Shown: in pieces, positions 39,019-58,405 of the stretch
How the letters are laid out: each line of letters begins with the position of its first letter
How positions within the stretch are numbered: position 1 is the stretch's first letter
Assembly: GCA_021204175.1 (NCBI GenBank)
Contig: JAJPZT010000032.1
Coordinates: 1-61,444, forward strand
Source: Clostridiales bacterium
Lineage (GTDB): Bacteria > Bacillota > Clostridia > Lachnospirales > CAG-274
DNA length: 61,444 nt
Direction of reading: 5' to 3'
Notes under the pieces: model-generated
Databases searched by the model: none
Told to the model about the DNA's origin: nothing
The model's input: only the letters and a program-made list of their open reading frames with translations
Position numbers and translations under genes: made by a program

Positions 39019-39436
<418 letters not shown>

Positions 39437-57598: not shown

Positions 57599-57627
57599 TT
57601 GCAAAATATGTTTTGAAGGTTTATAAT
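57599..57627 (+). promoter_or_regulatory. Promoter reading into the structured element and the gene at 58004
   Basis: TTGCAA (57599-57604), a 17-bp spacer and TATAAT (57622-57627). If used, it produces a leader of about 370 nt containing the hairpins listed below. Confidence 0.6.
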
Positions 57628-57662
57628 TACTGTAAAAGTGTTCTCAATGGAAAAACAGATAG

Positions 57663-57959
57663 GCAAGCTTGCTTGCATAGATGTTTGGACATTAGAGAAC
57701 CTAACCGGTATGAGTAAGTAGCCATTTTTCATAGAAAAAATGAGCGGATTACGAATACAGGTGGCGATTGCGAGAGTACGTCACACTTGCCTGCGTGCAT
57801 TCATTTCTGTGCAAGCACAGAAACAAGATGCACTGCGGAAGTGTTCCTTATTCGCTGAAAGCTAAGGCTTTCAGCGAGAGAGGAGCAACAGCGTAACAAA
57901 GTCTTGTTTTCGTACTTGTACGGAAACAAATGTGTGAAGCTTGGTGCGACGCGCAATCG
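57663..57959 (+). other. Large multibranched hairpin element in the leader of the 58004 gene
   Basis: A noncoding stretch packed with inverted repeats. An outer stem CGATTGCG/CGCAATCG (57765-57772 with 57952-57959) and TCACAC/GTGTGA (57781-57786 with 57932-57937) enclose an imperfect 17-bp stem (57783-57800 with 57828-57844) capped by TTTCTGTGC/GCACAGAAA. They also enclose a perfect 10-bp hairpin with TAAG loop (57853-57876) and a 12-bp hairpin with one G-U pair (57904-57929). Two further hairpins precede it (57663-57676 and 57723-57742). It could be a structured RNA, a long regulatory leader or a small mobile element. TCACAC shares four bases with the adjoining stem, so those two are alternatives at the junction. 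Confidence 0.65.
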
Positions 57960-58003
57960 ACTTTTATACTGTTGTAATTAATTTATTTCGGAGAGAACTG
58001 CTT

Positions 58004-58405
58004 ATGGAAACAATTGTTGTAATTATGGAAAAAGACCCCAAAACGGGTTTTTTGGATAAGGAAATTGCAAGCCTTTCAATTTCAAAAAATGTTGAATATA
58101 TTGTGAACTTATATGCTCAGGGCGACCGGCTTTTTATTAAGCTTTCGGACGAAAAGGAGCTTAAGGACTGGGAGTTTAACGCGGTTTATGACTATTTTGC
58201 CCCGGAGGTCTTTTCAGACAGAGCCTTGGAGGTTAAAGAAGTTGAAGACAGCTATAACCCCACCTGGGAGCTTAAGCTGCCTTTTAACAGAGAAAATATT
58301 GAAGAGACGGAGAAAAACGTCTGTGAGATTTTGGAAATTTTCAAGAAGGAAATTAACGATGTTTATGAAGCCTGTAAGGATAAGGAAGAGGACTATCTTT
58401 CTTAA
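58004..58405 (+). CDS. Small conserved protein of unknown function (DUF6762-like)
   Basis: 133-residue acidic cytoplasmic protein. It starts at the ATG at 58004, preceded by GGAGAG, and reads ETIVVIMEKDPKTGFLDKEI. I associate this start with the clostridial DUF6762 family, from memory. No catalytic motif is visible; the C-terminal third is predicted helical with many Glu and Lys. It probably shares a transcript with the next gene (39-nt gap) and follows the long structured leader. Confidence 0.65.
   Translation: METIVVIMEKDPKTGFLDKEIASLSISKNVEYIVNLYAQGDRLFIKLSDEKELKDWEFNAVYDYFAPEVFSDRALEVKEVEDSYNPTWELKLPFNRENIEETEKNVCEILEIFKKEINDVYEACKDKEEDYLS

Follow-up and report, generated by a model that had tools for sequence, protein, structure and literature searches.

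A Clostridiales-1 (RF01699) Element with MITE-like Features, Hosting a Second Hairpin Repeat, between the Promoter and Start Codon of a DUF6762 Gene

Introduction

The intergenic DNA ahead of a DUF6762 gene in a Clostridiales bacterium (Lachnospirales, CAG-274) folds into a long array of hairpins, and the question is whether this array represents an RNA gene with its own promoter, a dedicated leader of the neighbouring gene, or a mobile repeat. The window analysed is the whole stretch of 61,444 nucleotides from contig JAJPZT010000032.1 (assembly GCA_021204175.1), and all coordinates are given for it. A sequence-only reading of the window described a structured element of about 200 nt, driven by its own promoter, which might be a conserved RNA or a MITE. 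We compared the genome of the window (G000) with the other genomes of its genus (G018–G025) and with a broader sample of the class; for the genus, every assembly used is fragmented, and several were derived from metagenomes.

The locus carries a copy of the Clostridiales-1 family (RF01699), which has another repeat, B, in its third hairpin. We consider it highly probable that this family has spread in a MITE-like manner and that the copy was inserted behind the -10 box of the DUF6762 promoter, where it would be transcribed as a 5' leader. The stretch 57630–57966 is in fact a pair of dispersed repeats, the second lying within the first, and both are devoid of a promoter of their own.

Family Membership, Fold, and Structural Conservation

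RF01699 is the sole Rfam match in the whole window (57630–57814, + strand). It was obtained by a covariance-model scan with a score of 72.8 bits (E 4e-14), while the gathering cut-off of the family is 48 bits. The Rfam scan suggested earlier as a check thus identified the conserved structured RNA ahead of the 58004 gene; the remark that the stretch resembles no known riboswitch is correct, yet it does match a known RNA family. The extent 57630–57814 is the one scored by Rfam with an insert present, and the true 3' end of RF01699 is located near 57966.

The segment 57620–57975 (356 nt) has an RNA folding energy of -140.9 kcal/mol against -90.3 +/- 5.5 for its shuffles (z -9.2), and a DNA folding energy of -79.4 (z -9.4); neither value was matched by any shuffle. 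The multibranched structure with G-U pairs proposed previously is therefore real, although its length is about 330 nt instead of 200 nt. It consists of a closing helix enclosing hairpins 1 and 2 and a very long third arm (57765–57959). On the + strand, the tail-less RF01699 element interrupted by repeat B occupies positions 57634–57966, as indicated by the Rfam match, the fold, and comparison of copies. In the fold, the 5' arm of its closing helix (AAAAG, 57634–57638) pairs with the 3' arm (CTTTT, 57961–57965). Hairpin 1 (57640–57700, GTTCTC...GCAAGCTTGCTTGC...GAGAAC) is followed by hairpin 2 (57704–57762, ATGAG...GCGGATTACGAAT), which has a conserved internal loop, and by hairpin 3, in which the 5' arm CGATTGC (57765–57771) pairs with the 3' arm GCAATCG (57953–57959). 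The closing helix and three hairpins that define membership in RF01699 are all present; hairpin 2 and the closing helix are drawn from the Rfam alignment and the fold, and hairpins 1 and 3 are backed by covariation over 46 copies as well.

In the consensus of these 46 copies, 98.7% of the cells are paired and 19 of the 33 pairs show double compensatory changes, a result equalled by none of 500 shuffles; the complementarity was thus rightly called conserved. Hairpin 1 alone has 22 pairs, 12 of which changed in this way. The stretch was also described as non-coding, and indeed it has no long reading frame; the one exception is a TTG-started frame that would lengthen the 58004 gene at its 5' side, as far as 57941.

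Promoter Ownership and the Empty Site

The 17-bp-spaced promoter noticed in the sequence does exist: its -35 box TTGCAA is located at 57599–57604 and its -10 box TATAAT at 57622–57627 (+ strand, 57599–57627 as a whole), outside the element. The gene downstream (58004–58405, + strand), assigned to DUF6762 by a domain match (PF20548) and preceded by the Shine-Dalgarno-like GGAGAG (57990–57995, + strand, from the sequence and a start-site scan), is represented by an ortholog in each of the nine genus members. TTGCAA-16/17-TATAAT was found in all eight orthologs with readable upstream DNA, while the RF01699 element precedes DUF6762 only in G000 and G019 and is absent from the six other readable genomes. 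Since the promoter is kept in the element-free orthologs, it belongs to the 58004 gene and not to the element, contrary to what the sequence-only reading had assumed.

This observation bears on the possibility that the element is a free-standing, trans-acting small RNA transcribed from its own promoter. Such a role would agree with the Rfam type of the family (“Gene; sRNA”) and with its covarying structure. However, the promoter is that of the gene and persists where the element is lacking, and the sense copies located in leaders or between operon genes point to a cis element, so that we regard this possibility as very improbable.

In G018, the DNA upstream of DUF6762 represents an element-free site, GGTTTATAATGACAATGAATAATGTTGTAAAT, with the promoter kept, as compared to the filled site of the window, GGTTTATAATTACTGT–element–TACTGTTGTAATT. 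The window copy is flanked by a 6-bp direct repeat, TACTGT (57628–57633 and 57967–57972, both on the + strand), at the place of which the empty site has a single similar TAATGT. Judging from these letters, TACTGT may be the target duplication of the window copy; the exact insertion ends are uncertain because the G018 site differs by 9 bp. A precise empty site in close relatives, together with multiple genomic copies, had been named as the sign of a MITE. The empty G018 site and the many copies described below indicate that RF01699 is MITE-like in origin.

The two filled sites are almost identical. The composite 57630–58003 aligns between G000 and G019 over 373 bases without any substitution, a 1-nt indel being the sole difference; the upstream DNA, in contrast, shows 89.6% identity and the DUF6762 gene 95.3%. 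This identity, as well as the location of the element, which lies in sense after the promoter and ahead of the start codon, would suit a dedicated cis-regulatory RNA of DUF6762, that is, a vertically inherited, orphan riboswitch-like leader. Against it, the element is missing from the orthologous leader in six of six other readable genomes, the empty site contradicts vertical inheritance, other orthologous copies are conserved no better than their flanks, and copies precede unrelated genes, including ileS-like and ilvH-like genes with T-box leaders, an icd-like gene, and others. We therefore find a dedicated DUF6762 leader very improbable, and recent recombination or transfer is likely a simpler account of the G000/G019 identity than constraint.

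Conservation of the element above its flanks was considered as a sign of function and was not seen in the ortholog pairs of the genus, the window copy (G000/G019) excepted: the element is 94–98% identical between orthologs and the flanks are 83–98% identical. Since its structure covaries whereas its orthologous copies show ordinary conservation, the structure may be as important for amplification as it is for any function after insertion.

Copy Number, Distribution, and Mobility

The genome of the window has 12 RF01699 copies above the cut-off. With E up to 0.001, the matches number 15 in G000, 16 in G018, 23 in G019, and 19 in G022, while there are two each in G020 and G021 and none in G023, G024, or G025; these numbers are lower bounds because contigs often break at such repeats. 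About 50 copies of the genus share a common 5' end, TTTA followed by CTATAAAAG, and many possess a tail of about 30 nt past the closing helix, ending in TTTA. The pattern of this 3' tail (up to three mismatches) gives 11–15 matches per genome, compared to 0–1 for the reversed control; the window copy is devoid of the tail.

Precise empty sites at TTTA were revealed for two more copies (L039 against L164/L165, and L038 against L173/L174), with one TTTA when the site is empty and two when it is filled. In this genus, TTTA could belong to the element itself as its 3' end rather than being a target duplication, and in place of clear terminal inverted repeats there are just the closing helix and the 3' tail. 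RF01699 is short, non-coding, dispersed, and multi-copy, with a patchy distribution and precise empty sites, which are features of MITEs.

In the broader class sample, RF01699 was detected in 16 of 391 genomes, mostly in several copies. G354, the high-copy genome scanned for element ends, has imperfect terminal inverted repeats, TGATGccaGgGTCAAAAG / TGATGtggGtGTCAAAAG, with 101 matches versus none in the control. Target duplications of 5 bp are exact in four of seven cases (TTTTA, TTACT, TTTTA, and CTTTA), two of the remaining flanks match in four of five positions and one in three of five, and the permutation p is 0.0005 overall. The terminal inverted repeats and 5-bp duplications of G354 also argue for the MITE-like nature of RF01699.

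A transposase of the Y1 type (IS200/IS605 or RAYT) might be supposed to move the repeat as single-stranded DNA in a REP-like manner, B with its CGTC ends being a REP-like dimer. The insertion at TTTA, the 3' end TTTA, the lack of any longer duplication that is clear among the copies of this genus, the hairpin-rich ends, and the CGTC...GACG ends of B are all consistent with this route. However, the Y1 domain (PF01797) was not found in any element-bearing genome of the genus (G000, G018, G019, and G020–G022) and occurs only in the three genomes without RF01699, so that the REP/RAYT route is not supported; Y1 mobilisation was accordingly set aside for this genus. Y1 enzymes are not known to make target duplications, while the G354 copies are flanked by 5-bp ones. 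We thus hold mobilisation by a Y1 enzyme to be very improbable.

The explanation we prefer is that RF01699 would spread in this group as a small non-autonomous MITE-like repeat, moved by a putative transposase acting in trans. No autonomous partner was seen among the solo RF01699 3' ends examined or the G354 ends listed. A viral origin was considered as well: the hairpin-2 pattern gave no match in IMG/VR, and it gave none in plasmids. Partial RF01699 matches occur in records of uncultured “Bacteriophage sp.” from human faeces (MT835871.1, MT839641.1, and MT839354.1).

Reduced and distantly similar forms were also observed. Miniatures at L057 (G000:C42), L061 (G000:C32), and the 3' flank of L155 (G022:C304) retain the closing helix and hairpin 3 only, hairpins 1 and 2 being absent. 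A second structured repeat with a weak likeness to RF01699 (25.8–28 bits) is present at L058 1007–1168 and L059 1017–1179 (G000:C8 and C34) and has perfect ends, ACAGTTCAGCC...GGCTGAACTGT.

Repeat B and the Nesting of Hairpin Repeats

A search of G000 with the stretch as DNA yielded 35 places, which form two sets with different boundaries: one covers the RF01699 part (57627–57780), the other the 174 bp of repeat B. Bounded by CGTC...GACG, B is delimited by these genome matches at 57778–57951 (+ strand), within the loop of hairpin 3. It consists of three hairpins, a (57783–57844), b (57845–57884), and c (57885–57947), all on the + strand and taken from a consensus fold of nine copies, in which double compensatory changes affect 25 of the 66 pairs predicted. 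B has 23 matches in the genome of the window, many of them away from RF01699, and its copies are also found inside other hairpin repeats and beside palindromic ones.

In the window copy, the loop at the tip of hairpin 3 of RF01699 is occupied by B, and this unrelated 174-bp repeat may have been inserted into a resident RF01699 copy. At other loci, the filled and empty states are seen side by side. At the T-box-led ileS-like locus, hairpin 3 is short-looped (GATTGTGAGAGTGCGAAGCACGGAGCAATC) in G000 (L032) and G019 (L122), and in G018 (L115) B is found at the loop, with about 8–10 nt replaced. At the ilvH-like locus, RF01699 is plain and free of B in G000 (L030) and G019 (L130), and in G018 (L210) B replaces hairpin 2 together with one half of hairpin 3.

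The window also has hairpin repeats in a recombinase-like gene (39019–39113 and 39302–39363, ending AAAAGTTCTGAA), of which the sequence-only reading had thought the array might be a larger member. They represent a different family, another hairpin repeat. The repeat at 39019–39113 matches one located inside hairpin 3 of RF01699 in G000 (L041) and G019 (L206), so the two families are linked by nesting.

Several further associations of this kind were observed. At L029, L030, L031, and L038, one more dispersed hairpin repeat, AAGGTAGAAACCATCAAGTTTTCCGC...CAGAAAAGTTTCTGTCC, has B at its 3' side, and two of its copies hold yet another repeat in their own loop. Palindromic repeats CACCTCTC...GGGGAGCC adjoin the B copies of L034, L046, L049, and L052. 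In L037 and L045 (G000:C114 and C94), the loop of the middle hairpin of B has an A+T-rich hairpin insert, which is alike in both.

Position, Orientation, and the Predicted Leader

Orientation was analysed in 43 non-redundant copies of the genus, from which copies related by descent had been removed only where their flanks matched; the orientation and promoter statistics are simple pattern scans, and the start-codon counts were taken by eye from the output of a simple scan for start sites. A start codon within 90 nt was found on the sense side of 20/43 copies and on the antisense side of 4/43 (p 0.0015, this genus). A sigma-A-like promoter is located 1–9 nt ahead of ten copies in the sense direction and of none in the antisense one (0.07 expected from shuffles); in six copies, the -10 box and AAAAG are separated by exactly 6 nt. 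An intrinsic terminator lies directly ahead of 10/43 copies, as compared to one in the reverse sense (0.36 expected). The presence of the 3' tail does not mark the leader position significantly (p 0.36). Such a strong sense bias, combined with covariation, is unusual for a purely selfish MITE.

The genes after RF01699 are diverse (ileS-like and ilvH-like with T-box leaders, icd-like, and others), and with its patchy presence the family has no conserved link to one gene class. At L030, L032, and L210, RF01699 is located directly behind the T-box-like leader terminators of the ilvH-like and ileS-like genes. In other genera, many copies lie between operon genes and begin at the stop codon that ends the preceding gene; start codons there are on the sense side in 20 cases and on the antisense side in none, a count in which not all copies are independent because some look orthologous, while in G354 the respective numbers are 1 and 2.

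Since the window copy is inserted directly behind the -10 box, its structure is expected to form the 5' leader of the DUF6762 mRNA. The spacing suggests a transcription start near 57634, 6 nt past the -10 box and at the foot of the closing helix; DUF6762 transcripts would then begin with a multibranched leader of about 330 nt before the Shine-Dalgarno sequence. Folding of the full transcript gives a stable body, in which the 5' AAAAG is paired at about 40% (0.40), so protection of the 5' end by the closing helix is weakly supported by this model. The pairing of the ribosome-binding site in folding is 0.60 in the window leader versus 0.46 in the empty G018 leader; it is only moderately paired, and therefore no strong influence on translation is expected. 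Most likely, we are dealing with a non-autonomous mobile repeat that is transcribed together with the gene and forms a structured 5' leader, which may act in cis on mRNA stability or expression. If it has a function, mRNA decay or insulation from upstream reading is the likeliest one.

Outside the high-copy genomes, the copies may have been domesticated as portable leaders, retained since their structure stabilises or insulates the message; this is compatible with our explanation and plausible, even if we give it appreciably less than an even chance. The sense bias of 20 versus 0 in other genera against 1 versus 2 in MITE-like G354, the copies that share a downstream gene between genomes (L232 and L237; L233 and L254), and the constant 6-nt gap between the -10 box and AAAAG in six copies speak for domestication. 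On the other hand, the orthologous copies of this genus evolve no differently from their flanks, and the pattern could partly result from a preference of insertion for A+T-rich targets. More speculatively, and with a somewhat smaller chance of being right, RF01699 as a whole would be no sRNA at all; it would be a portable mRNA leader that moves, is inserted in sense at start points and behind terminators, and then forms the first section of the recipient message, with the loops of its hairpins receiving other hairpin repeats; perhaps insertion is guided by the DNA opened at such places.

Comparison with Known Systems

The element belongs to RF01699 by its sequence and resembles MITEs in its behaviour; it is not a gene-specific riboswitch. 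Within the literature searched, Clostridiales-1 is treated by Weinberg et al. 2010 alone (PMC2864571); in the text of that paper available to us the family appears only in a table, and no description of it as a repeat, insertion, or leader element was encountered in the texts available. The sequence, closing helix, and three hairpins of the published family, so far as that text gives them, are those of our element, while the window copy differs from Rfam RF01699 by the 174-bp insert in hairpin 3 and by lacking the 3' tail.

Repeat B shares its CGTC ends, its palindromes, and the absence of a detected dedicated transposase with the CGTC-tagged REP repeats (PMC3733652), but differs from them in being 174 bp long with three hairpins. 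It bears the CGTC tag without the architecture of these repeats (a stem of 8–9 bp and a loop of 4–5 nt). The survey of CGTC repeats reported them in five phyla, Firmicutes not being among them (PMC3733652).

RF01699 itself may also be compared with known elements by its behaviour. The target of bcr1 is TTTAT. The bcr1–bcr3 repeats of the Bacillus cereus group, as described in PMC3446304 with reference to the original papers, are likewise intergenic, multi-copy, and MITE-like, located in UTRs and operon gaps, and bcr3 of B. cereus correlates with mRNA decay. RF01699 differs in its strong sense bias and in its presence in many clostridial genera; the likeness drawn here is one of behaviour. The BOX, RUP, and SPRITE elements of pneumococcus (PMC3049150) are similarly structured, have proliferated in the past, and are co-transcribed with their neighbours, BOX being modular; however, they are over-represented between convergent genes, while RF01699 precedes start codons in sense.

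Since 2010, no function has been assigned to the Clostridiales-1 RNA family. Evidence of a MITE-like origin with target duplications, and of a mostly sense placement in leaders and operon gaps, would turn the “orphan sRNA” into a testable candidate for a transposable distributor of structured mRNA leaders; it is also a warning that a covarying RNA family need not be a conserved gene. The repeat-in-loop nesting in orthologous filled and empty pairs provides a handle on how such composite structures arise.
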